Shown: positions 1 through 29,290 of the stretch, in pieces
Layout of the letters: every line of letters begins with the position of its first letter
Position numbering within the stretch: the first letter of the stretch is position 1
Source of the DNA: a virus
Length of the DNA stretch: 29,290 nucleotides
Direction: 5' to 3' (one strand)
Virus record (IMG/VR): IMGVR_UViG_3300032242_002373
Span: 1-29,290 of that record
The notes under the pieces: model-generated
Databases searched by the model: none
What the model was told of the DNA's origin: nothing
Seen by the model: only the letters and a program-made list of their open reading frames with translations
Position numbers and translations under genes: made by a program

Positions 1-182
1 GTGCCTTGAGAACCAGTTGGGCCTTGTGGGCCTTGAGAACCTTGCGAACCAGTCGGGCCTTGAGAGCCTTGCGAGCCAGCAGCACCTTGCGAACCAGTTG
101 GGCCTTGAGGACCTTGCGTGCCTTGAGAACCAGTTGGGCCTTGTGGGCCTTGAGAACCTTGCGAACCAGTCGGGCCTTGAGG
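1..182. repeat. 117-bp direct repeat in collagen-like gene
   Basis: The stretch starting at 1 recurs starting at 118 and matches for more than 60 bases. The 117-bp period equals 39 codons or 13 G-X-Y triplets, so copy-number change by recombination would keep the frame. The array may continue beyond the window edge. Confidence 0.75.
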
Positions 183-977
183 ACCTTGACTGCCTTGAGA
201 TCCAGCAACGCCTTGCGAACCTTGAGAACCTTGACTACCTTGCGATCCGACAGAACCTTGCGGGCCTTGAACGCCTTGCGGACCTTGAGAACCTTGCGAA
301 CCAGTTGGGCCTTGAGGACCTTGAGAACCTTGCGAGCCAGCAGCACCTTGCGGCCCCTGTGGGCCTTGATTACCTTGTGAGCCAACAGAACCCTGTGTGC
401 CTTGAGGACCTTGAGAACCCTGAGCACCGGCAGATCCTTGTGGACCTTGCGGCCCTTGAGGACCGGGGATAGTTGAATTAGATCCTGTATTTCCCTGTGA
501 TCCTTGAGGACCTTGTGGGCCCTGAGAACCTTGTGGTCCTTGAATAGAAGATTGAGCGCCTTGAGGACCCTGAGGACCTTGCGAACCCTGCGAGCCAGTT
601 GATCCCTGAGGACCCTGAACCCCTTGCGGACCTTGACTTCCCTGAGGGCCAGTTGAACCTTGTGGCCCTTGAGACCCTTGAGAACCTTGCGATCCCTGTG
701 GGCCCTGAGATCCTTGCGGACCTTGGGAACCTTGAGGGCCTTGAAAACCCTGAGGACCTTGATTACCCTGAGGCCCCTGAACTGTAGATTGAGCACCCTG
801 AGGGCCCTGTGGACCTTGGGCACCCTGTGGTCCTTGCGGACCTTGAACGCCAACTGGTCCCGAAACACTAGAACCAACAGCAATAATATTATTTGCAGCC
901 TGCTGAACGAGAATAATATTGTCATCTTGTTTTAAAACAATATTATCATTTTGCTTTAAAATAATAGACTGATTCAT
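1..977 (-). CDS. Collagen-like tail/fibre protein (partial)
   Basis: The reading frame opens at an ATG that overlaps the upstream stop (ATGA) and stays open to the window edge, so the C-terminus is missing. Residues 1 to about 40 are polar, with Asn/Gln-rich repeats (LKQNDNIVLKQDDNIIL) that may form a short trimerising or attachment segment. After that nearly every third residue is Gly in G-X-Y triplets, mostly GPQ, GSQ, GPT and GAQ, with short breaks such as the AQSTVQ and AQSSIQ segments. Phage collagen-like proteins form trimeric stalks in tail fibres or head fibres. It is last in the visible structural operon behind the portal and small virion-like genes. At DNA level a 117-bp unit (13 triplets) is directly repeated at the left end. 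Plus-strand frames here are artefacts of the repeats. The class is sure; the exact location in the virion is not. Confidence 0.9.
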   Translation of the reverse strand, partial: MNQSIILKQNDNIVLKQDDNIILVQQAANNIIAVGSSVSGPVGVQGPQGPQGAQGPQGPQGAQSTVQGPQGNQGPQGFQGPQGSQGPQGSQGPQGSQGSQGSQGPQGSTGPQGSQGPQGVQGPQGSTGSQGSQGPQGPQGAQSSIQGPQGSQGPQGPQGSQGNTGSNSTIPGPQGPQGPQGSAGAQGSQGPQGTQGSVGSQGNQGPQGPQGAAGSQGSQGPQGPTGSQGSQGPQGVQGPQGSVGSQGSQGSQGSQGVAGSQGSQGPQGPTGSQGSQGPQGPTGSQGTQGPQGPTGSQGAAGSQGSQGPTGSQGSQGPQGPTGSQG

Positions 978-21430: not shown

Positions 21431-21506
21431 TGCAAAAAACCGGGAAAGGCCCACCAAAACCAACCAAACAGCTATGCTATACTAGAATAGACAAAGGAAA
21501 CCCACC

Positions 21507-21950
21507 ATGCCAGATAAACCCAACGACAGAGTAACCAAACTCATCAACAAACTAGCACCAATCTGGCAAACACGCCTAGGCTTAGACCACTGGGACATCC
21601 AACACACCTTCATAGACAACTACTTCGGAGACGACAACGGTCAAGACCACAAAGTCACTGCAACCACACACGCCCAATGGCAATACATGGACTCCAACAT
21701 CAAATGGTACCTCCCATCAGCAGTACGACACGAAGAAGAAACCCTCGAAAAAATACTCGTACACGAACTCGTCCACGTCCTCCTCGCCCCCGAACAAACC
21801 CTAATCGACACAGAAATCATCCACTCCAGCTCCCACGGACAATACAACGAAACCCAAACCAACGCACTCGTAGAACGCAACTACGAACACATCGAACTCT
21901 CAACCGAAATGGTCACCAAAGCCCTCATCAACGCATGGCAAACCACCTGA
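21507..21950 (+). CDS. Putative HExxH metalloprotease
   Basis: The product has 147 residues. The zinc motif LVHELVHVLL at about 84-93 (HELVH 86-90) is classical, preceded by ATTHAQWQYMDSNIKWYLP and followed by an acidic helix LVERNYEHIELSTEM that may give the third ligand. It is compact, like SprT/minimal gluzincin phage proteins. The ribosome site AAAGGAAA lies 6 nt upstream and TATACT/TAGAAT about 20-30 nt upstream. Codon third positions are strongly A/C, unlike genes before 20.6 kb. Two putative metalloproteases encoded side by side is notable. Confidence 0.78.
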   Translation: MPDKPNDRVTKLINKLAPIWQTRLGLDHWDIQHTFIDNYFGDDNGQDHKVTATTHAQWQYMDSNIKWYLPSAVRHEEETLEKILVHELVHVLLAPEQTLIDTEIIHSSSHGQYNETQTNALVERNYEHIELSTEMVTKALINAWQTT

Positions 21951-21957
21951 CCAAACC

Positions 21958-22194
21958 ATGACAGAAACAAACTGGACATGGATACTCTTCGCAGCCGAAA
22001 TATACGGCCTCACCGGAATGTACCTCATAGGTAGAAAACAATGGCAAGGCTGGCTCATCATCCTAACCCACTCAATCCCATGGTTCACCTACTCCATCAT
22101 CTACCACAAACCCGGATTCATCGCCATGTCCCTAATGTGGTGGACCATGTACCTAAACAACATGATCAAATGGCGCAAACAAGACAAACTTTAA
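21958..22194 (+). CDS. Small polytopic membrane protein
   Basis: The product has 78 residues with about three membrane helices: WTWILFAAEIYGLTGMYLIG, GWLIILTHSIPWFTYSIIY and FIAMSLMWWTMYL, ending in a basic tail. The pattern GMYLIGRKQWxGW with SIPWxxYS recalls short PnuC-like or holin-like actinophage proteins, but length is too short for a transporter. It follows the metalloprotease by 7 nt and is the last gene of the AT-rich arm. Confidence 0.7.
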   Translation: MTETNWTWILFAAEIYGLTGMYLIGRKQWQGWLIILTHSIPWFTYSIIYHKPGFIAMSLMWWTMYLNNMIKWRKQDKL

Positions 22195-22419
22195 CCCAAA
22201 AATAACCAAAAATTTAATACACGCGATTACAATGCTGCCCACTGCTGCAGAATAATGGATCATACCAAAAGTGGGGGGGTACAAGTGTTCGATGGTGAAG
22301 ATGAACAATAGGTGAACAATCGCTCTAGGGTCTATCTATTCGGCAAGGATTCCCGTACGATGACTACGTAGTACGGAAGGCGGGAACGGCCCGCCTCCCT
22401 CACCCCGAAAGGTTCCACC
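22195..22419 (+). promoter_or_regulatory. Leader region of the accessory arm
   Basis: Contains two inverted-orientation iteron units (GATGAAC and GGTGAAC, 11 bp apart, 22300-22321), a dyad CCGTAC/GTACGG near 22353-22375 that holds TACGTAGTAC, and a hairpin GGCGGG/CCCGCC just before the ribosome site. GC content rises here from the left side to the right side. No gene seen. Confidence 0.5.
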
Positions 22420-22767
22420 ATGAACTACCCACCCGCTAAGACCCGCCCGACTGTTTCACGTGAAACACTCACCGAGACTCAGTTCTGCGACATTCTTCAG
22501 AACCTTATCCATGGATGGTACGACGAAGATTCCATGGTGGACGTTCCTCACTTTCCCGGCCTTAGTTTGTCGTTTGAGCGTTGGGACCGTTCCTATCAGG
22601 GATCGATGGAAGAACCGCCAGAGATGCTCTACGACTTTAGCGCAAGGCTCATCACAGCAGATGGCGACATTATTGCTGAATGGGGCGGTACTGATGAGGA
22701 ATGGCACGACGATGGCGAGCACATGGGCGAGGTTCTTGCCTTTCTTCAGGAGCAGTACCGAGACTAG
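22420..22767 (+). CDS. Orphan accessory protein carrying an embedded parS
   Basis: The product has 115 residues, rich in Asp/Glu/Trp. It is paralogous to the 119-residue product encoded at 26491: shared blocks are F.D[IL]LQN.I, DRS..G.M..PEM.[YF]DF[ST]AR and E[WF]GGT.E.W..DGE. The N-terminal TVSRETL is encoded by the parS palindrome, and this N-terminal extension is not shared with the paralogue, so the DNA site probably imposes the amino acids. AAAGG lies 7 nt upstream. No known family. Confidence 0.72.
   Translation: MNYPPAKTRPTVSRETLTETQFCDILQNLIHGWYDEDSMVDVPHFPGLSLSFERWDRSYQGSMEEPPEMLYDFSARLITADGDIIAEWGGTDEEWHDDGEHMGEVLAFLQEQYRD
22452..22467. promoter_or_regulatory. parS-type ParB/Spo0J binding site
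   Basis: TGTTTCACGTGAAACA is a perfect 16-bp palindrome identical to the conserved chromosomal parS consensus of Bacillus and actinobacteria (core GTTTCACGTGAAAC). It lies within codons 11-17 of the gene. No ParA or ParB gene is present in the window, so host ParB is the obvious candidate to bind it. Confidence 0.85.
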
Positions 22768-22776
22768 CAACAGCGG

Positions 22777-22807
22777 GGCAGTTATCCACACCCTGTGGAT
22801 AACTGCC
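22777..22807 (+). terminator. Hairpin with an inverted DnaA-box pair
   Basis: A 14-bp perfect arm pair (GGCAGTTATCCACA and its complement) with a 3-nt CCC spacer. Each arm carries an exact DnaA box (22782, 22794). It immediately follows the preceding gene, so it can serve as terminator and as binding site. The same cassette recurs at 23089. Confidence 0.65.
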
Positions 22808-22861
22808 TTGTCCTACCATCCACCAAACACTCTAACTTTACTACACAGGAGAAACTCACCC

Positions 22862-23083
22862 ATGAACACCGAACGACGTACCATCAAAGTATCCTTCACC
22901 CGTGAGCAGTACCGTGCACTAGTCCGTGCCTCAGTCGTGGCCGAACATACCGCGCGAGACAATGGCGACATGGCAGAGGCACGCCTACAGCGTGCAGCAC
23001 GTAGTCAATGGCACTACGGTTGGAACTCTCACGATGTCCTCCCTATGTACACCGATTGCGACGCCCTCGCATTCGAGGACTGA
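22862..23083 (+). CDS. Orphan accessory protein
   Basis: The product has 73 residues: MNTERRTIKVSFTREQYRALV, then a helical part MAEARLQRAARSQWHYGW. AGGAG is 10 nt upstream. The VSFTREQYRALV block followed by RAARSQW resembles ITLTGDEYDALI and ASATALW in the product encoded at 27387, so the two may be distant relatives. The intergenic cassettes before and after it are near copies. Unknown function. Confidence 0.65.
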   Translation: MNTERRTIKVSFTREQYRALVRASVVAEHTARDNGDMAEARLQRAARSQWHYGWNSHDVLPMYTDCDALAFED

Positions 23084-23088
23084 CACAA

Positions 23089-23121
23089 GGGCAGTTATCC
23101 ACACCCTGTGGATAACTGCCC
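23089..23121 (+). terminator. Second hairpin with an inverted DnaA-box pair
   Basis: 15-bp perfect arms (GGGCAGTTATCCACA and its complement) with a CCC spacer, boxes at 23095 and 23107. It is followed, as in the first copy, by TGTCCTACCATCCA and, after a gap, TAACTTTACTACACAGGAG. Confidence 0.65.
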
Positions 23122-23170
23122 TGTCCTACCATCCAACTTACCCCATAACTTTACTACACAGGAGAACACA

Positions 23171-23260
23171 ATGATGCACACACTCGCAGTATTCGCCCTC
23201 GCAATTCCGCCCGGCCTCGCACTTGGGGCATACCTCGCAAGAAAGATCGTGAACCTCTGA
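23171..23260 (+). CDS. 29-residue membrane mini-protein
   Basis: MMHTLAVFALAIPPGLALGA followed by YLARKIVNL: one hydrophobic helix with a basic end. The ribosome site GGAG lies 6 nt upstream within the duplicated cassette. The stop overlaps the next ATG (TGATG), which supports real translation. It may act as a small membrane effector or toxin-like peptide; function unknown. Confidence 0.58.
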   Translation: MMHTLAVFALAIPPGLALGAYLARKIVNL

Positions 23261-23388
23261 TGACTATCGAACACTTACTCCACAACGCTTGGGTGATCGT
23301 GAAGGTTGTCACCATCACCGGAACACTCGCCCTAGTCGCTGCAACATTCTGGAACATCGGACAACGAATCACCGGAGGGAAACGATGA
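23260..23388 (+). CDS. 42-residue membrane mini-protein
   Basis: MTIEHLLHNAWVIVKVVTIT, then GTLALVAATFWNIGQRITGGKR: a single membrane helix with a basic C-terminus, so the tail should stay in the cytoplasm. It is coupled to the genes on both sides (TGATG before, ATGA after). Two tiny membrane proteins in a row resemble paired holin-like or immunity-type genes, but no family is recognised. Confidence 0.58.
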   Translation: MTIEHLLHNAWVIVKVVTITGTLALVAATFWNIGQRITGGKR

Positions 23389-23615
23389 GAACACGGACCC
23401 GAGTAGAGATCTGGACAGGACAGGACGGGATCACCTACCGAGAAAGCAGAGAGAGGAGGGGATCAGTCACCGTAATCCAACGGTGCAGGAATCACCCTAG
23501 CCCCCTTCCTCTTCTGAAGAAGATCACCACAGGAGCAGGGACCAAGATCGACATGTGCCCCGAATGCGACTACATCGCCATCGAGGCCGATACACTACCA
23601 GAATCTCAGGGGTGA
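23385..23615 (+). CDS. Small basic protein
   Basis: The product has 76 residues. The ATG overlaps the preceding stop (ATGA) and has GGAGGG upstream. It begins MRTRTRVEIWTGQDGITYRE and contains VIQRCRNHPSPLPLLKK and a late MCPECDYIAIEAD, giving a possible C..C zinc half-site. Unknown family. It ends 9 nt before the DnaA-box cluster. Confidence 0.62.
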   Translation: MRTRTRVEIWTGQDGITYRESRERRGSVTVIQRCRNHPSPLPLLKKITTGAGTKIDMCPECDYIAIEADTLPESQG

Positions 23616-23623
23616 GAGGAAAG

Positions 23624-23969
23624 TTGTCCACAGGCTCCGGCTTGTGGACAACTTATCCCCCTGTGGATAACCTTACCCACAGGACAAACGCCACTTATCC
23701 CCAGACCTGTGGATAACTTTCCCCCTCTTCTGTGGACAACCCTGTGGAGAACCTCGAGAATCCCCCGAGATCTGTGGACAAACTGTGGACAACGCGCGCG
23801 CCTGTGAACAAAGCTGGGGAAAACCTGTGGACAACCTGTGGAAAACCTTATCCACACCCCACTTATCCACAGGGTGTGGATAAACCTGTGGAAAACTCGC
23901 GCGCGCGGGCGTGCGCTGAGGCTTTTCCAGCACTGGCACGCCCGCGAGTTATCCACAGGCTGTGGATAA
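23624..23969. other. Dense DnaA-box cluster (putative origin core)
   Basis: Thirteen exact DnaA-type 9-mers in 346 bp. TTATCCACA or its complement starts at 23662, 23708, 23848, 23863, 23875, 23949 and 23961; TTGTCCACA or its complement at 23624, 23643, 23731, 23773, 23784 and 23826. Near matches (TGTGGAAAA, TGTGGAGAA) lie between them. Two box pairs are inverted with exactly 3 bp between (23863/23875, 23949/23961). The cluster leads directly into the iteron array. No gene is supported here; open frames on both strands are composition artefacts. Confidence 0.82.
23904..23946. repeat. GC-rich long-loop inverted repeat, copy 1
   Basis: 11-bp arms CGCGGGCGTGC/GCACGCCCGCG enclose a 21-nt loop containing AGGCTTTTCCA. 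One of five related elements in the accessory arm; the right arm runs into an inverted DnaA-box pair. Confidence 0.75.
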
Positions 23970-23983
23970 AAATTTAACCTAAA

Positions 23984-24139
23984 ATTCACTTTCTGTTTAC
24001 CTTGTGTTCATCTAAAGTTCATTTGGAATTCATTTGCTGTTCATCTAAAATTCATTTACATTTCATCTCCCGTTCATTTCCCGTTCACTTATTGTTCATC
24101 TAAAGTTCACTTGACAGGTTCACTTTGCGTTCATCTTCA
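23984..24139 (+). repeat. 11-bp iteron array (14 units)
   Basis: Fourteen head-to-tail 11-mers of the form RTTCAYYTNNN. Units start every 11 bp from 23984 (23984, 23995, 24006 and so on to 24105) without a phase break; a 2-bp shift precedes the last two (24118, 24129). GTTCATCTAAA occurs three times exactly (24006, 24039, 24094). The 11-bp period places every unit on about the same helix face. Directly follows the DnaA-box cluster. Confidence 0.9.
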
Positions 24140-24142
24140 GAG

Positions 24143-24158
24143 TCGAACGATTGTTCGA
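24143..24158. promoter_or_regulatory. LexA (SOS) box
   Basis: TCGAAC-GATT-GTTCGA is a perfect match to the actinobacterial/Bacillus LexA operator (TCGAAC-N4-GTTCGA). It lies 4 bp after the iteron array, at the start of a long gene-free leader. Host LexA repression with release after DNA damage is the natural reading. Confidence 0.8.
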
Positions 24159-24533
24159 TGAATAATTATGCGTTGTAATGTCTAGCCCCTAGATTGCGTT
24201 CTAAGCGATTCACCTACCCGAATGACCTACCTATAGGGAAAGGTTCTCGGAGAGCCTTAGAACGAAACGAAGAAATATTTCTATGGCTACTTTCCCCTTA
24301 TTTCCCTTGGCATTTCCCCGATTCCTGAACCTACGGACCAAGAAATTGCCGTAGTTGTGTCTCACCCGTGTGCTAGTTTCGTGTACGTAGTACAGCGGCA
24401 GGGCCTACGGCGCACGAGCGTGACGGCCTCCCGCAAGCGGTCCTTGACAACGGAATAGGCGACTGGCTCAAGCGGGTGATATCCCGCTCACTTTCGCCAT
24501 GCCTTTATTCATCCCAAACGAAAGGAGCCTCTA
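24159..24533 (+). other. Gene-free leader with several dyads
   Basis: 375 bp with no convincing gene. Dyads: CGTTCTAAG/CTTAGAACG (24197-24205/24256-24264), CTACGG/CCGTAG near 24330-24355, and GCGGG/CCCGC near 24473-24488. TACGTAGTAC, also seen near 22364, recurs near 24382. It may be a structured untranslated leader of the next gene, controlled by the LexA box. Confidence 0.45.
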
Positions 24534-24956
24534 ATGGCTCTCACAACTACCGACCGCGGCGACGTATTCGCCGGGGGAACAATTGCCCACGTTGGGCGGG
24601 AGAATCTGAGCGTGCAAGCGCGCGCGATTCTCAAAGCGTCGGAGCGTCTCTCGGAGTCGCTCTCTCCCATCTCCTCTATCGCCATCTACGAAAGCGGCGA
24701 CGTAGTGGAGACGCTGTACCTCTCACAAACTTTCTCCAATGGCGAGACAGTCGTGAAGCACTACACGCTTACCAATGGCGTTCTGACTGCCGAACAATGG
24801 CGACGGGATGGCGGGGAATGGTTCGAATTCACTCTGACCCATCCAGTCAATTCGCTACTTTGGATAGCCGGACATGATGAGCGAGACGCTTGGGAACACC
24901 GGGGTTATCTGAACTGGCTTGACGAAATGGAACGGACCAACGGGTTCGATTCCTGA
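24534..24956 (+). CDS. Orphan accessory protein
   Basis: The product has 140 residues, starting 8 nt after AAAGGAG. It reads MALTTTDRGDVFAGGTIAHV, then SSIAIYESGDVVETLYLSQTF and HYTLTNGVLTAEQWRRDGGEWFEF, with alternating strands suggesting a beta-rich domain, and ends WLDEMERTNGFDS. No Cys and no membrane helix. Not recognised. It is the first gene downstream of the origin-like region and LexA box. Confidence 0.7.
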   Translation: MALTTTDRGDVFAGGTIAHVGRENLSVQARAILKASERLSESLSPISSIAIYESGDVVETLYLSQTFSNGETVVKHYTLTNGVLTAEQWRRDGGEWFEFTLTHPVNSLLWIAGHDERDAWEHRGYLNWLDEMERTNGFDS

Positions 24957-24963
24957 AACACTC

Positions 24964-24989
24964 GCCCGGCCCCCAATCGGGGGCCGGGC
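24964..24989 (+). terminator. GC-rich intrinsic terminator
   Basis: An 11-bp perfect stem GCCCGGCCCCC/GGGGGCCGGGC with loop AATC, followed by ATCTTT. The same flanks (CACTC before, ATCT after) recur at 25242. Confidence 0.8.
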
Positions 24990-25023
24990 ATCTTTCCCAA
25001 CTAGCACAAGAAAGCGGGACACA

Positions 25024-25236
25024 GTGAACAACGTAGAACTAAACGACACTCATGCTATGCGCCTAGATGCTCTGATAATGAACCTCCTAGAGCAACAGCG
25101 TTACAGCGTCCAATGTTGGCAGGACAACTACCCCGGCCACGCTCTTCGGGACTTTGACGTTGCGAACCTTGAAGCCTTAGAGGTTCTGAGCAAGCAACTT
25201 CGAACGATCCGAAAGCAGATCGTCGCCAACAAGTAA
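25024..25236 (+). CDS. Helical orphan protein with GTG start
   Basis: The product has 70 residues; the GTG was chosen because upstream codons fall in the preceding terminator hairpin. It is wholly helical: MRLDALIMNLLEQQRYSVQC, then NLEALEVLSKQLRTIRKQIV, probably a short coiled coil or helical hairpin. Unknown function. Flanked by a pair of near-identical terminators. Confidence 0.6.
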   Translation: MNNVELNDTHAMRLDALIMNLLEQQRYSVQCWQDNYPGHALRDFDVANLEALEVLSKQLRTIRKQIVANK

Positions 25237-25241
25237 CACTC

Positions 25242-25265
25242 GCCCGGCCCCACTTGGGGCCGGGC
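25242..25265 (+). terminator. GC-rich intrinsic terminator, copy 2
   Basis: 10-bp stem GCCCGGCCCC/GGGGCCGGGC with loop ACTT, in the same flanks as the terminator at 24964. Confidence 0.78.
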
Positions 25266-25294
25266 ATCTCTCACCCTTGAAAGGAGGTGCAACA

Positions 25295-25468
25295 ATGGCG
25301 AAACAGTGCTTCTACTGCTCGGCCGATACCAGTTCAGACAAGGCGTCACTCTGTGACGCTTGTCTGGTAATCGAAGACGAGATCGGACTAATCGAACCAA
25401 ATCCCTACGAGATCGAACCTGATCCGTATGGGCATGGTGAGGATTACTGGCCAGAATTCGGGGACTAG
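25295..25468 (+). CDS. Zinc-finger mini-protein
   Basis: The product has 57 residues from the ATG that follows AAAGGAGGTG, the best ribosome site in the arm. CFYCSADTSSDKASLCDAC gives a four-Cys zinc finger at residues 5-23; the tail is very acidic with repeated EPNPYEIEPDPYGHGEDY. It could be a protein-interaction finger. Not recognised as a family. Confidence 0.7.
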   Translation: MAKQCFYCSADTSSDKASLCDACLVIEDEIGLIEPNPYEIEPDPYGHGEDYWPEFGD

Positions 25469-25477
25469 TCCGATGTC

Positions 25478-25503
25478 CTCCCGGCCTCTTCGGAGGCCGG
25501 GAG
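25478..25503 (+). terminator. Hairpin with TTCG tetraloop
   Basis: 11-bp perfect stem CTCCCGGCCTC/GAGGCCGGGAG with a TTCG loop. There is no T tract, so it may act as a Rho-independent block only weakly or as an mRNA end stabiliser. Confidence 0.65.
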
Positions 25504-25580
25504 CCTCAACCTCAACTAGAGGGTTACCCTCAAGATGAACACTAGATGAACTCTTTATCCACAACCCCTGTGGAAAACTT

Positions 25581-25635
25581 GTTCACCTAAAGTTCATCTC
25601 CCGTTCACCCAAAATTCACCCAAAGTTCACTTTGG
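25581..25635 (+). repeat. 11-bp iterons (5 units)
   Basis: GTTCACCTAAA, GTTCATCTCCC, GTTCACCCAAA, ATTCACCCAAA and GTTCACTTTGG follow without gaps. Confidence 0.85.
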
Positions 25636-25677
25636 CGGGCGCGCGGCCAATGTCGTCCCTCCAATTGCGCGCCCGCC
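25634..25677. repeat. GC-rich long-loop inverted repeat, copy 2
   Basis: Arms GGCGGGCGCGC/GCGCGCCCGCC around a 22-nt loop holding CAATGTCGTCCCTCCAATT, which also occurs in copy 4 although the arms differ. Confidence 0.78.
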
Positions 25678-25703
25678 AGTTATCCACAGGCTGTGGACAA
25701 ACA

Positions 25704-25769
25704 TTTAACCTAAAATTCATTTAGAATTCACCTAAAGTTCACCTAAAGTTCATTGTAAATTCATTTGAC
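25704..25769 (+). repeat. 11-bp iterons (6 units)
   Basis: A degenerate TTTAACCTAAA is followed by ATTCATTTAGA, ATTCACCTAAA, GTTCACCTAAA, GTTCATTGTAA and ATTCATTTGAC, all in 11-bp phase. Confidence 0.83.
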
Positions 25770-25837
25770 AACTTATCCACAACCTTGTGGAAAACACTGT
25801 GGACAACTTTCTTACCTTCCGTTAACCTAATGTTCAC

Positions 25838-25866
25838 TTGACAGGTTTTGCTGTATCTGTTCTAAT
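25838..25866 (+). promoter_or_regulatory. Leaderless promoter
   Basis: Consensus TTGACA (25838-25843) and TCTAAT (25861-25866) with a 17-bp spacer; the hexamer ends 6 nt before ATG. TTGACA lies inside an iteron unit, so an iteron-binding protein could control RNA polymerase access. Confidence 0.75.
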
Positions 25867-25872
25867 ACCTAC

Positions 25873-26232
25873 ATGACAAACGTCATGGCAGCTCAGCCGG
25901 TACCCACTCCGGCCACTCAGCAGGAACTCGCAGCGACCCTCGTTGCGAAACTCATTAGCGGCGGATTCGCCAAGATCACCGCCGAGGTGGACACTTTCAC
26001 CTGCAACGGGATGCCTCAACCCGCAAACACTCTCACGATCCGTGCCGACGGATTCGTGATCGCTGAACTCAACATCCTCTCACCCGAGGTTGAGTCGTGT
26101 GTGTTCTGCACCCTCGGAGATGAGGAGCAGCACTGCTCGCCCAAGTGCCACCCGTACCTCGATTCCGGGTTCGTCCTTGAGGTGCATCGCCTCAACGCCG
26201 CCAAAGATCTCGAACACACCGAGATCGGCTGA
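25873..26232 (+). CDS. Cys-containing orphan protein
   Basis: The product has 119 residues. The ATG lies 6 nt after the -10 and no ribosome site is present. A helical N-terminus (QQELAATLVAKLISGGFAKI) leads to a beta region (NTLTIRADGFVIAELNIL) and then CVFCTLGDEEQHCSPKCHPY, four Cys and two His that could hold zinc. Not recognised. It is followed by the longest perfect hairpin of the window. Confidence 0.7.
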   Translation: MTNVMAAQPVPTPATQQELAATLVAKLISGGFAKITAEVDTFTCNGMPQPANTLTIRADGFVIAELNILSPEVESCVFCTLGDEEQHCSPKCHPYLDSGFVLEVHRLNAAKDLEHTEIG

Positions 26233-26239
26233 ACCAAAG

Positions 26240-26278
26240 GTTGAGGGTTTGTCCACAGGGTGTGGACAAACCCTCAAC
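26240..26278 (+). terminator. 18-bp perfect hairpin with inverted DnaA boxes
   Basis: Arms of 18 bp starting GTTGAGGGTTTGTCCACA, spacer GGG, then the exact complement. Each arm ends in a TTGTCCACA box. It follows the preceding stop by 8 nt. Two reverse-orientation iteron units follow at 26279-26296. Confidence 0.72.
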
Positions 26279-26332
26279 ATGAACTTTAGATGAATTCTTT
26301 ATCCACAACCTGTGGACAAACCTGTGGAAAAC

Positions 26333-26373
26333 GCGGGCGCGCGCCAAGGCTTTTCCAATACTTGCGCGCCCGC
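26333..26373. repeat. GC-rich long-loop inverted repeat, copy 3
   Basis: 10-bp arms GCGGGCGCGC/GCGCGCCCGC around a 21-nt loop with AAGGCTTTTCCAATA, matching the loop of copy 1. An inverted DnaA-box pair (26299/26311) precedes it. Confidence 0.78.
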
Positions 26374-26413
26374 AAATAATGCATCATACTATAAACACTT
26401 TTTAGTGCGCATA

Positions 26414-26434
26414 GTTATCGAACACTTCGATAAC
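26414..26434. promoter_or_regulatory. 21-bp palindrome, possible operator
   Basis: GTTATCGAA-CAC-TTCGATAAC has 9-bp perfect arms and lies 21 bp ahead of the -35 element of the next promoter. A typical position and symmetry for a dimeric activator or repressor. Confidence 0.55.
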
Positions 26435-26455
26435 CAACTGCCTCAAAGAAATCTA

Positions 26456-26484
26456 TTGACAACTGTCGCAAACTCTGATTAGAT
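26456..26484 (+). promoter_or_regulatory. Leaderless promoter
   Basis: TTGACA (26456-26461) and TTAGAT (26479-26484) with a 17-bp spacer; 6 nt separate the hexamer from ATG at 26491. Confidence 0.7.
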
Positions 26485-26490
26485 ACACCT

Positions 26491-26850
26491 ATGACAAAGA
26501 ACAGCGTTACCTCATCAGCCCTGCCCGTCCTCACCGCCAAGAACATCATGCCGTCAGACTTTGCTGATCTTCTCCAGAACATAATCAACCTGCGTTGTTA
26601 CGATGGCCTCACACGTATCGAACTCCCCCTATTCGATGAACTTGACATGATTGTCGATAAGAATGACCGATCATTCGATGGCGACATGATCGACTCCCCA
26701 GAAATGGCATTCGATTTCACTGCCCGCATCTACGATGGCGACACCGTACTCATCGAATTTGGCGGAACTCATGAAAGTTGGGACACCGATGGCGAAACAT
26801 TCCTCGCTGATCTTCTCGCCTACATGATCGAACACAAAGCAGGGTGGTGA
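26491..26850 (+). CDS. Orphan accessory protein, paralogue of gene at 22420
   Basis: The product has 119 residues. From about residue 20 it aligns with the parS-bearing gene's product: FADLLQNIINL, NDRSFDGDMIDSPEMAFDFTAR, IEFGGTHESWDTDGE and DLLAYMIEH. The conserved aromatic and acidic residues suggest a common compact fold, perhaps a protein-interaction or mimic domain. The mRNA is probably leaderless. The parS-containing N-terminal stretch of the paralogue is replaced by unrelated sequence. Function unknown. Confidence 0.72.
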   Translation: MTKNSVTSSALPVLTAKNIMPSDFADLLQNIINLRCYDGLTRIELPLFDELDMIVDKNDRSFDGDMIDSPEMAFDFTARIYDGDTVLIEFGGTHESWDTDGETFLADLLAYMIEHKAGW

Positions 26851-26856
26851 TGAGAA

Positions 26857-26878
26857 GCCCGGCCCTTCGGGGCCGGGC
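26857..26878 (+). terminator. Hairpin with TTCG tetraloop
   Basis: 9-bp perfect stem GCCCGGCCC/GGGCCGGGC with loop TTCG, 6 bp after the stop codon. Confidence 0.72.
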
Positions 26879-26925
26879 TAACCCTCAACCACAGGTACAG
26901 CGTTTATCCACACCCTGTGGATAAC

Positions 26926-26967
26926 GCGGCCGTGCGTGCAATGTCGTCCCTCCAATTGCACGGCCGC
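26926..26967. repeat. GC-rich long-loop inverted repeat, copy 4
   Basis: Arms GCGGCCGTGC/GCACGGCCGC around a 22-nt loop with the same CAATGTCGTCCCTCCAATT as copy 2. An inverted DnaA-box pair (26904/26916) lies just before, and TTATGCATA-CAT-TATGCATAA (26971-26991) just after. Confidence 0.78.
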
Positions 26968-26970
26968 AAA

Positions 26971-27050
26971 TTATGCATACATTATGCATAACTTTGAATA
27001 CATATTCGTAACACAATTGTAACCTAATGTTTACCTAATGTTTACCAAAA
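26971..27050. promoter_or_regulatory. AT-rich palindromes and degenerate iterons
   Basis: TTATGCATA and TATGCATAA are inverted with a 3-bp spacer (26971-26991), then the near-palindrome GAATACATATTC (26996-27007), then three iteron-like units with CCTAAT or CCAAAA ends at 27018-27050. Confidence 0.6.
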
Positions 27051-27055
27051 AAACC

Positions 27056-27084
27056 TTCACAAACGCTTGGAAGTGTGCTCTAAT
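27056..27084 (+). promoter_or_regulatory. Leaderless promoter
   Basis: TTCACA (27056-27061), 17-bp spacer, TCTAAT (27079-27084), then 6 nt to ATG at 27091. The -10 and its flank match the promoter at 25838. Confidence 0.7.
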
Positions 27085-27090
27085 ACATAC

Positions 27091-27375
27091 ATGAACACAA
27101 ACGAAACCCCAACACTTACCCAATGCATCAACCACTACATAATCGACGCTTTCATGCCGCCGATCTCAGTCGTCACGGAATCTCTAGCAGTCGAACTGGG
27201 ACTCGGAAACATTCCCGGCGCAATCTGCATGGAATGCAACGAGAACCCCATCCTCATGAACCATGATGACAAAGGCCGGGGTATTGAATGGAACAAGACA
27301 TACATAAACATAAAGACAGATGACTTCATCTGCTACGATTGCTCACTCATCCACCTACCCGAAACCAACCGGTGA
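27091..27375 (+). CDS. Zinc-binding orphan protein
   Basis: The product has 94 residues. CMECNENPILMNHDDKG and, 35 residues later, FICYDCSLIHLPE give two CxxC pairs for one zinc site, with a helical N-terminus (TLTQCINHYIIDAFMPPISV). The start is fixed by the promoter 6 nt upstream. Not recognised; the CxxC...CxxC layout is common in phage regulators of transcription and in nuclease cofactors. Confidence 0.7.
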   Translation: MNTNETPTLTQCINHYIIDAFMPPISVVTESLAVELGLGNIPGAICMECNENPILMNHDDKGRGIEWNKTYINIKTDDFICYDCSLIHLPETNR

Positions 27376-27386
27376 AAGGCAACACA

Positions 27387-27632
27387 GTGAAGACCTACGA
27401 CATTCCCCGCAAGTACTACCAAGAACTAATGAGCATCGGAATCGAGCTTGGAATCATAAAGAAGTGGACGAGGTGGATCACTAGAATCACTCTCACGGGT
27501 GACGAATACGATGCCCTCATCGATCTGGCAGACTTCGGCTCAATGGATCGAGTCATGAACGAATTCGAGATCGGACGATTTGCATCGGCAACAGCCCTAT
27601 GGCACGTCCTCAACGACAAAGGCAGACCCTGA
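27387..27632 (+). CDS. Orphan accessory protein with GTG start
   Basis: The product has 81 residues: it begins VKTYDIPRKYYQELMSIGIE, followed by WITRITLTGDEYDALIDLA and GRFASATALWHVLNDKG. AAAGG lies 7 nt before GTG. TLTGDEYDALI and ATALWHV resemble parts of the 73-residue product encoded at 22862, so they may share a domain. Unknown function; probably co-transcribed with the zinc protein. Confidence 0.63.
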   Translation: MKTYDIPRKYYQELMSIGIELGIIKKWTRWITRITLTGDEYDALIDLADFGSMDRVMNEFEIGRFASATALWHVLNDKGRP

Positions 27633-27645
27633 AACACTCAAGCCC

Positions 27646-27757
27646 CGCGACTTATCCACAACCTGTGGATAAGTCGCGGGCGTGCTGCCAAACTCCTTTC
27701 AAAATGGCACGTCCGCGACTTTATGCATAGATTATGCATAAAGTTGAATACGTATTC
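27646..27757. other. Composite dyad element: box pair, GC repeat copy 5, AT palindromes
   Basis: CGCGACTTATCCACA and its complement (27646-27678, 3-bp spacer) are followed by GTCGCGGGCGTGC/GCACGTCCGCGAC (27673-27719, one G-T pair, 21-nt loop). The two stems share the GTCGCG at 27673-27678 and cannot form together. Then TTATGCATA-GAT-TATGCATAA (27721-27741) and a perfect GAATACGTATTC (27746-27757). Confidence 0.75.
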
Positions 27758-27798
27758 TTTCCCTAGCACACCCATCGAGCCGACGCAAGTCAATCCGG

Positions 27799-27815
27799 TG
27801 TGACATCTGACCATC
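27799..27815 (+). promoter_or_regulatory. Shared upstream motif of the 93-residue gene family
   Basis: GTGTGACATCTGACCA here recurs as GTGTGACATATGACCA near 29106 ahead of the third family member, in otherwise related flanks including CGCAAGTC some 15 bp earlier. A CRP-like palindrome takes this place ahead of the second member. Confidence 0.5.
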
Positions 27816-27924
27816 GAAAAAGCCCAAAGAAACTTGCCGTATGACTTGTGCTCAGCCTTCAGGTATGCAATACTTTCCTCATCGGCAAGGGAACAAGCCC
27901 AAGCCGCAAAGTAAAGGAATCCCA

Positions 27925-28206
27925 ATGACTGACGAGTTTGTTTCTCCCGCAGAGTTCGCACGTTCACCCCGAGGCCGAAAGACCGAATGGAACGAAGAAC
28001 TCATCGCAACCCTGAAGAAAGTTTCGGAAGGCAAGGGCGTTGTCCTCAAGACCTCCGTGGGTGAAGTCGCCCATGACGAGCGTCCCGCAGTCTCCGCCAT
28101 GATCCGCAAGCACTGGCGACGTGATCGGACTGACGAAGTTTCGATCTCCTTCAGCCTCTCCGGCATCCCGCAGGTGGAAGTCAAGAAGGTCAAGGGCAAG
28201 CGGTAA
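27925..28206 (+). CDS. 93-residue family protein, copy 1
   Basis: The product begins MTDEFVSPAEFARSPRGRKT and ends SGIPQVEVKKVKGKR. It is very basic in its middle (AMIRKHWRRDRTDEV) and probably binds nucleic acid or an acidic partner. AAAGGAATCC precedes ATG. The two other copies to the right are almost identical over the first 25 residues and more varied after residue 35. The shared core is EWNE.LI.TLKKV, GEVAH..RPAVSAMIRKHWRRDRTD and PQVEVKK. I do not recognise a named family. Confidence 0.78.
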   Translation: MTDEFVSPAEFARSPRGRKTEWNEELIATLKKVSEGKGVVLKTSVGEVAHDERPAVSAMIRKHWRRDRTDEVSISFSLSGIPQVEVKKVKGKR

Positions 28207-28217
28207 GCCCCAAGTCT

Positions 28218-28247
28218 GCCCGTCCCTGATCCGCCTCAGGGACGGGC
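28218..28247 (+). terminator. Intrinsic terminator
   Basis: 12-bp perfect stem GCCCGTCCCTGA/TCAGGGACGGGC with a 6-nt loop, 11 bp past the stop. No clear T tract. Confidence 0.72.
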
Positions 28248-28259
28248 AACCAAACCCCC

Positions 28260-28331
28260 CGGACGAACGCCCGGTGTCGCCAGTCGATGCCGGGCGTTCG
28301 TCTGCTTGCTTCACCGCAGACGAACGCCCGC
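28260..28331. repeat. Three-armed inverted repeat
   Basis: GACGAACGCCCGG (from about 28261), CCGGGCGTTCGTCTGC (28292-28307) and GCAGACGAACGCCCG (28317-28331): the central arm can pair with either outer arm, so two alternative hairpins are possible. Confidence 0.7.
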
Positions 28332-28340
28332 CGCTGTCAA

Positions 28341-28373
28341 GTGAATTTTAGGTGAACTTTTAGTGAATTTTTC
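28341..28373 (-). repeat. 11-bp iterons in reverse orientation (3 units)
   Basis: GTGAATTTTAG, GTGAACTTTTA and GTGAATTTTTC. On the minus strand they read as RTTCAC units and run into ACTTGACAG, as the arrays near 24107 and 25835 do. Confidence 0.75.
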
Positions 28374-28464
28374 ATTTTGATTTGCGTGAGCTCGAGCCGT
28401 GTGCTACGTCGAATTTCGGCCGTACCATACCGGGCCGGCCCTGTCAAATCGAGTCTGCCGACGA

Positions 28465-28480
28465 TGTGACACATTTCACA
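28465..28480. promoter_or_regulatory. CRP/GlxR-type binding palindrome
   Basis: TGTGA-CACATT-TCACA has both half sites of the Crp-family consensus (TGTGA-N6-TCACA) without mismatch. It lies 95 bp ahead of the second 93-residue gene. Confidence 0.6.
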
Positions 28481-28574
28481 CCCTCTCAATTAGGTATGGG
28501 GTAGGAATTTTAAGTAGTGTTCTCTTTAGCGGTTGGGACTGGCCCAGCTGCTCAACTTAGGAAAGTGAGTCACA

Positions 28575-28856
28575 ATGACTGACGAATTTGTTTCACCGGA
28601 AGAATTCGCTCGATCCCCACGGGGCCGCAAGACCGAATGGAATGAGGATCTCATTTCTACTCTCAAGAAAGTCACACTCGCAAAGGGTGCCGTCCTCGGT
28701 TCTTCGATCGGTGAGGTTGCCCATGAGGATCGGCCAGCAGTCTCGGCCATGATCCGAAAGCACTGGCGTCGGGATCGCACCGACGACATTTCGATTTCCT
28801 ACTCCCTGACCGGGGTTCCTCAAGTGGAGGTGAAGAAGAGCAAGAGCAAGCGCTAG
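28575..28856 (+). CDS. 93-residue family protein, copy 2
   Basis: The product begins MTDEFVSPEEFARSPRGRKT and ends TGVPQVEVKKSKSKR. It aligns with copy 1 without gaps; differences cluster at residues 33-50 and many third codon positions differ, so the duplication is not recent. AGGAAA lies upstream of ATG. The C-terminus is lysine-rich. Role unknown; repeated gene-plus-cassette units suggest dosage or functional diversification. Confidence 0.78.
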   Translation: MTDEFVSPEEFARSPRGRKTEWNEDLISTLKKVTLAKGAVLGSSIGEVAHEDRPAVSAMIRKHWRRDRTDDISISYSLTGVPQVEVKKSKSKR

Positions 28857-28887
28857 AGCGCAACTGAGCGCCCTTAGGGCCCAACTG

Positions 28888-28929
28888 AGAAGCACCGGGG
28901 AGTCTTGGTCGATAAGCCCCGGTGCTTCT
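28888..28929 (+). terminator. Long-stem hairpin
   Basis: 13-bp perfect stem AGAAGCACCGGGG/CCCCGGTGCTTCT with a 16-nt loop, ending in CTTCTTGG. Confidence 0.65.
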
Positions 28930-28943
28930 TGGCGTCCTCGGCC

Positions 28944-28980
28944 GGGCGTTCCACTCAACTGCAAAAACAGTGGAACGCCC
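28944..28980. repeat. GC-rich inverted repeat
   Basis: 12-bp arms GGGCGTTCCACT/AGTGGAACGCCC with a 13-nt A-rich loop. The GGGCGTTC core is shared with the three-armed repeat at 28260. Confidence 0.68.
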
Positions 28981-29222
28981 GCAAATATTGATATAAACAT
29001 TTAACTAAATGTTAATATAAATGTAATAGCAAACATATAGGCAAACACTTTGCTAAACATTTCAATTCCCTACCACACTCCCCGACCCCCGCGCAAGTCG
29101 AGAACGTGTGACATATGACCACCTCCAGAATGGCCTTTGGAGTGGCGCAGACCTTTGCCTTTCTGATACGGTTCTCTTATCGAGTTAGGGAATGGCCCTA
29201 CCGATGACCAAGGAGATTCATC

Positions 29223-29290
29223 ATGACTGATGAGTTTGTTTCCCCGACAGAGTTCGCGCGTTCACCGCGCGGACGCAAGACAGAGTGGAA
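29223..29290 (+). CDS. 93-residue family protein, copy 3 (partial)
   Basis: The start and first 22 complete codons are visible: MTDEFVSPTEFARSPRGRKT then EW. It differs from copies 1 and 2 in codon choice (CGC GGA CGC in place of CGA GGC CGA). AAGGAG lies 7 nt upstream. The window ends inside the gene, so more copies may follow. Confidence 0.78.
   Translation, partial: MTDEFVSPTEFARSPRGRKTEW

Follow-up and report, generated by a model that had tools for sequence, protein, structure and literature searches.

What raises the question at this locus is a perfect copy of the bacterial chromosomal centromere site, parS, in the genome of a phage. The window, which is the whole stretch of DNA analyzed here, is an IMG/VR fragment of 29,290 bases that represents about 30% of a genome of approximately 97–98 kb. 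The palindrome TGTTTCACGTGAAACA is located at positions 22452–22467, has no assigned strand, and lies inside a small open reading frame (ORF) that has no known relatives apart from one paralogue. An earlier reading of the sequence alone had suggested that the phage may recruit the ParB protein of its host for the segregation of an episomal prophage, for the positioning of DNA at the pole, or as a decoy that titrates ParB. Here, we consider what the palindrome is likely to do, based on its conservation in related viruses, the gene content of these viruses, and the distribution of parS among phages in general.

The Palindrome and Its Reading Frame

The bacterial-type parS consensus, TGTTYCACGTGAAACA, is a 16-bp palindrome, and the site at 22452–22467 matches it exactly, as had been claimed. 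It is the only site in the window within 3 mismatches of the consensus, while shuffled windows contain a mean of 0.16 such matches. From base composition, about 1e-5 exact copies are expected in a window of 29,290 bases, and the earlier statement that a perfect 16-bp match is very unlikely by chance is thus confirmed. The ORF that holds the site (22420–22767, plus strand) encodes 115 amino acids and has an ATG start with a plausible ribosome-binding site, GAAAGG, upstream. Codons 11–16 span the palindrome and read T-V-S-R-E-T. The ORF has no Pfam or PHROG match, and no homologues were found in IMG/VR by sequence or two-row alignment, in cultured phages, or in the two large relatives, G013 and G014, introduced below. 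The paralogue on the same strand (26491–26850) is 35% identical and had been described as lacking the N-terminal stretch with the site. The paralogue in fact has an N-terminus of similar length but unrelated sequence, from which parS is absent.

Relatives of the Phage and Conservation of the Site

The portal protein shares as much as 47% identity with those of the Stanwilliamsviridae, which are Streptomyces phages of 125–135 kb, and the window looks like a fragment of a virulent actinophage of about 97–98 kb related to this family. IMG/VR contains two large relatives, G013 (97,486 bases) and G014 (96,743 bases), with structural genes that are about 79% and 75% identical to those of the window, respectively. 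A third contig, identical to G013, joins the ends of G013 via approximately 1 kb; because it bridges both ends, G013 is considered essentially complete and circularly permuted. A portal search of genome contigs found no host, and an Rfam scan identified tRNAs only. At one contig end of the window (1–970), low-complexity collagen-like repeat ORFs occur in several frames, and the assembly breaks of both the window and G013 are situated in or beside a collagen-like repeat.

Both relatives carry the palindrome. G014 contains an exact parS (16/16) at 93225 and G013 contains TGTTTCATGTGAAACA at 66093, with one mismatch (15/16), so that the window, G013, and G014 have one site each. The sites in G013 and G014 are syntenic and intergenic: they are located directly 3′ of the stop codon of orthologous small genes, whose proteins are 39% identical, and a terminator-like sequence is present just downstream. 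Between the two genomes the 16 bp are 94% identical, as against 34–43% for the ungapped flanks, and the alignment of the 300 bp 3′ of the site falls within the range of shuffled sequences. Conservation of 16 bp amid diverged flanks is typical of DNA elements on which selection acts. The position in the window is not orthologous to that in G013 and G014, as it lies at the other edge of a GC-rich module; the counterpart of the G013/G014 position in the window's phage would be past the contig end. The syntenic locus is covered by two IMG/VR relatives only, G013 and G014, as the contigs G007, G006, G003, and G004 stop short of it. In 14 cultured relatives from the Stanwilliamsviridae and Weaselvirus, of which 13 infect Streptomyces and one is Rhodococcus phage Grayson, parS is absent even when 2 mismatches are allowed, which makes the site a trait of the environmental group rather than a family-wide one. 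A further contig (G053, portal 43% identical), included as an extra case only, has an exact parS within a tail-like gene.

These comparisons bear on the simplest alternative, in which the palindrome is there by chance or as a by-product of encoding the peptide TVSRET and has no function. The location inside an ORF without homologues and the cultured relatives without a site would fit such an origin. Given TVSRET, however, the probability of the exact parS DNA is about 4.7e-4 under the codon usage of neighboring genes, and this value adds to the low expectation from composition and to the intergenic, syntenic copies in the relatives. A meaningless by-product is therefore improbable. The intergenic copies with diverged flanks, together with the low probability given the peptide, point to constraint on the parS DNA rather than on the coding sequence.

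Partition, Integration, and Replication Genes

No match to ParB_N (PF02195), to ParA-type AAA_31 (PF13614), or to tyrosine integrase (PF00589) was found in the window, G013, or G014. Serine recombinases were covered in G014 only, where ORFs of at least 110 amino acids were scanned against Pfam, and the Pfam matches of 82 G014 proteins include no plasmid-type Rep family. The earlier remark that no parA or parB gene is in view was made for a stretch of only 29.3 kb of the genome; it stands for the window, and a search of the near-complete relatives G013 and G014 detected neither gene. The replication genes of G014 comprise DNA polymerase III alpha, DnaB helicase, primase, and SSB, and the same genome also encodes a RecA/UvsX recombinase, RuvC, ThyX, ribonucleotide reductase, and an endolysin. 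The phage thus looks virulent, with its own replication fork proteins. The episomal-prophage version of ParB recruitment is unlikely given that G013 and G014 lack detectable tyrosine integrase, ParA, and ParB and that G014 has its own replisome. A prophage or plasmid reading was rejected, as no tyrosine integrase or Par protein was detected in the window, G013, or G014 and no Rep family among the Pfam matches of the 82 G014 proteins.

The same searches address the idea that a ParB of the phage itself is encoded outside the contig and that the palindrome is the centromere of the phage's own ParABS system. The window covers only about 30% of the genome and could have missed such a gene, but there is no ParB_N or AAA_31 match in the near-complete relatives at 97 kb. 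Moreover, characterized actinophage ParB proteins use an 8-bp direct-repeat parS of their own and not the host palindrome (PMC7157519). We regard a phage-encoded partner for the site as very improbable.

A GC-Rich Module with DnaA Boxes

The site lies in a GC-rich module of small orphan genes and repeated intergenic cassettes (21500–29290, plus strand) that is truncated by the contig end and has a G+C content of about 0.46–0.56, compared with about 0.37 in the backbone. All three genomes have such a GC-rich segment, about 9–10 kb long, and roughly 37–41% G+C elsewhere; the counterparts are located at about 68–78 kb in G013 and 80–88 kb in G014. Perfect DnaA boxes, TTATCCACA, are present 19 times in the window module, for which a first-order model predicts 0.07, 8 times against 0.04 in the G013 counterpart, and 7 times against 0.02 in that of G014, which is an oriC-like cluster beyond chance. 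In the window, a dense array contains 15 TTDTCCACA boxes in 400 bp, inverted pairs included (23624–23969, no strand assigned). It is adjoined by TTCA repeats with a phase of exactly 11 bp that extend over about 120 bp on the plus strand (23984–24109). A similar array in G013, at 75870, packs 17 relaxed boxes into 400 bp and has comparable TTCA repeats ahead of it, while in G014 at most 4 relaxed boxes occur in 400 bp. The array and the TTCA repeats, at 23624–24109 in the window and 75740–76240 in G013 (approximately 15740–16240 in L210), stand amid otherwise unrelated orphan genes. Further DnaA boxes and inverted pairs of such boxes (25555, 25680, 25773, 26249, 26299, 26904, and 27652) are located upstream of small genes in the region 25555–27672, with no strand assigned.

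The DnaA array with its 11-bp TTCA repeats is a candidate phage origin or DnaA-responsive control region, and in its arrangement it is reminiscent of a replication origin that relies on host DnaA. The cassettes also stand before many of the small genes, however, which makes a role in transcription equally plausible. GC skew did not locate an origin, as in neither G013 nor G014 does it switch clearly at the module. The distance from parS to the nearest DnaA box is 315 bp in the window, 4.2 kb in G013, and 5.3 kb in G014; this proximity was not used as independent evidence, since a site placed at random in a 97-kb genome has a fair chance of lying no more than about 6 kb from a 10-kb module.

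The only module proteins common to all three phages belong to a family with an SPRGRK motif (MTDEFVSPxEFARSPRGRKTEWNE...), which has no Pfam or PHROG match. Its genes are found at 27925–28206, 28575–28856, and 29223 to the end of the window, at 67.9–69.5 kb in G013, and at 89.2–90.1 kb in G014. These proteins are possibly DNA-binding.

Occurrence of parS in Other Phages and Viruses

Cultured phages were searched with versions of parS lengthened by a base at either end (A-T, T-A, or C-G), and 198, 117, and 34 records, respectively, matched at 17–18 bp, although duplicates and entries under phage names that are probably bacterial fragments account for part of these counts. Two control palindromes matched 0 records. 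Some of the parS "phage" records are probably bacterial DNA, for example unannotated pieces of "Listeria phage LM 4-11-1" and a record from Acinetobacter in which the site coincides with a transporter gene. Phages with parS include those of Microbacterium, Gordonia, Arthrobacter, and Rhodococcus, Listeria A511/P100, Lactobacillus Bacchae, Roseobacter DSS3P8, Butyrivibrio Arian, Clavibacter CMP1, B103 and Goe1 of the phi29 family, and several Microviridae. Phages of Escherichia, Salmonella, and Klebsiella are absent among the matches listed; to our knowledge, these hosts lack ParABS. In 12 representative cultured phages with parS, ParB was absent throughout and no tyrosine integrase was found in nine; eight have two to four sites, some of them clustered, when sites with one mismatch are counted.

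Within groups of cultured ParB-less phages, such as the Gordonia Woes-like, Listeria A511/P100-like, and Arthrobacter Joann-like phages, the exact parS is found at one fixed place. Bajarodino viruses 3, 6, and 7 (PQ006097, PQ006149, and PQ006134), of about 6 kb and from rodent feces, have five to six parS each, a surprising density for genomes so small.

In IMG/VR, exact parS occurs in at least 120 contigs, compared with 1 contig for a control palindrome of matching base composition and 31 contigs for one in which the CACGTG core was kept. No ParB was found in 46 of 50 contigs that carry parS and are at least 16 kb long. In addition, 47% of 146 parS sites, against 12% of random positions, are outside any ORF of at least 80 amino acids. 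This recurrence in hundreds of virus records suggests that many phages borrow the chromosome-segregation machinery of the host. In a group of marine viral contigs (loci L027, L042, L045, L066, L083, L093, L101, L111, and L119), parS is located at a conserved flank, and part of these loci have a repeated TTAGGCA-type motif adjoining.

The number of sites per genome is pertinent to the decoy, in which replication would multiply parS, drain ParB from host centromeres, and block host segregation and division. ParB is limited in number in the cell, a replicating genome would supply many parS copies, and several cultured phages have 2–4 sites. The window, G013, and G014 have a single site each, however, and titration would favor arrays of sites, which are a minority here. 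We consider a decoy unlikely. The setting of the sites is pertinent to another alternative, a regulatory one, in which ParB bound at parS would silence or shield neighboring phage genes or DNA, as a road-block or by coating, and would not move the genome. The G013 and G014 sites come right after a gene and before a terminator-like sequence, the window site is within the leader codons of a gene, and phages are known to exploit host regulators, such as Spo0A in the case of phi29 and CtrA in that of alphaproteobacterial phages (PMC9437464). Nevertheless, the sites have no conserved promoter arrangement, and their contexts are very different between phages, which leaves a regulatory function rather doubtful, slightly more so than the decoy.

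Proposed Recruitment of Host ParB

Recruitment of host ParB by the phage-borne parS, the core of the original suggestion, is supported by four lines of evidence: the exact site, its synteny in relatives without a detected ParB, its recurrence in ParB-less phages against 0 cultured control records, and the phi29/Spo0J precedent. On this basis, the palindrome is probably a genuine host-type centromere site that recruits host ParB and thereby positions or compacts the phage genome. The role of the recruited protein would most likely be positioning, compaction, or partition, and less so titration.

ParB acts as a CTP clamp that loads at parS and then slides (PMC12704722). After injection, ParB-CTP dimers of the host would load at the single parS and close as clamps, which would then slide on the phage DNA. 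Coated with ParB in this way, the genome would engage the host ParA gradient and the SMC condensin, and these would hold, compact, or move it as they do a chromosomal origin. As an outcome, the genome might be kept with the nucleoid or the pole in early infection, or shared between daughter cells if lysis is delayed. With the adjoining DnaA-box array, the same segment may also recruit host DnaA, and the whole module would be a mimic of the bacterial oriC–parS region. ParB binding, the consequences of this binding, and any role of DnaA are what we infer from the features above. More tentatively still, we propose that capture of the host segregation machinery through a bare parS may be widespread across ParB-bearing hosts, and that large freshwater actinophages may combine a DnaA-box array, 11-bp iterons, and parS into a full mimic of the host origin.

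If phages of at least five bacterial groups carry a bare parS, then ParB, ParA, and SMC would be common host factors in infection, which so far have been studied in phage almost solely with artificial parS tags or with phi29. ParB is now seen as a CTP switch that loads condensin, and one would then also have to ask whether host SMC has a part in folding phage genomes. Cultured phages of laboratory strains allow an immediate test of the prediction, and a native parS offers a ready label for imaging phage DNA via host ParB fusions.

Comparison with Known Systems

A literature search, with subscription papers and preprints outside its scope, found the phi29/Spo0J case and no survey of ParB-less phages with parS. 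The site itself is of the chromosomal kind. Corynebacterium glutamicum has ten identical parS, of which one is sufficient, and ParB spreads up to 16 kb on either side (PMC7083940). The window shares with it the 16-bp consensus similar to that of B. subtilis, and in C. glutamicum the site is origin-proximal and one is enough; the difference is that its parS is chromosomal and that parAB are in the same genome. Among the actinobacteriophages, RedRock, Miko, and similar phages have a ParABS system with their own ParA and ParB and an 8-bp direct-repeat parS (PMC7157519), as is the case for the ParABS systems of mycobacteriophages. The likeness is that of an actinophage centromere site meant for partition, but the window's phage has a host-type 16-bp palindrome and no detected parAB. 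The Stanwilliamsviridae, such as the Streptomyces phages Phredrick, Comrade, and Angela, are close in the portal protein, but the site is missing, at up to 2 mismatches, from the 14 cultured relatives mentioned above.

The closest functional parallel is phi29 (Salasmaviridae). Host Spo0J, a ParB protein, traps phi29 DNA in spores (PMC9437464, citing Meijer 2005), and the phi29-family phages B103 and Goe1 carry an exact parS. That a phage can exploit host ParB while encoding none itself is thus already known from phi29, and the phenomenon is wider than the window. A host-type parS in a phage without a detected ParB is also what the window and its relatives G013 and G014 display, and here the exploitation would consist of recruitment. 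Unlike phi29, a small protein-primed podovirus of a spore-former, the phage described here has a genome of about 97 kb, a PolIII-type replisome, and a parS beside a DnaA-box module.
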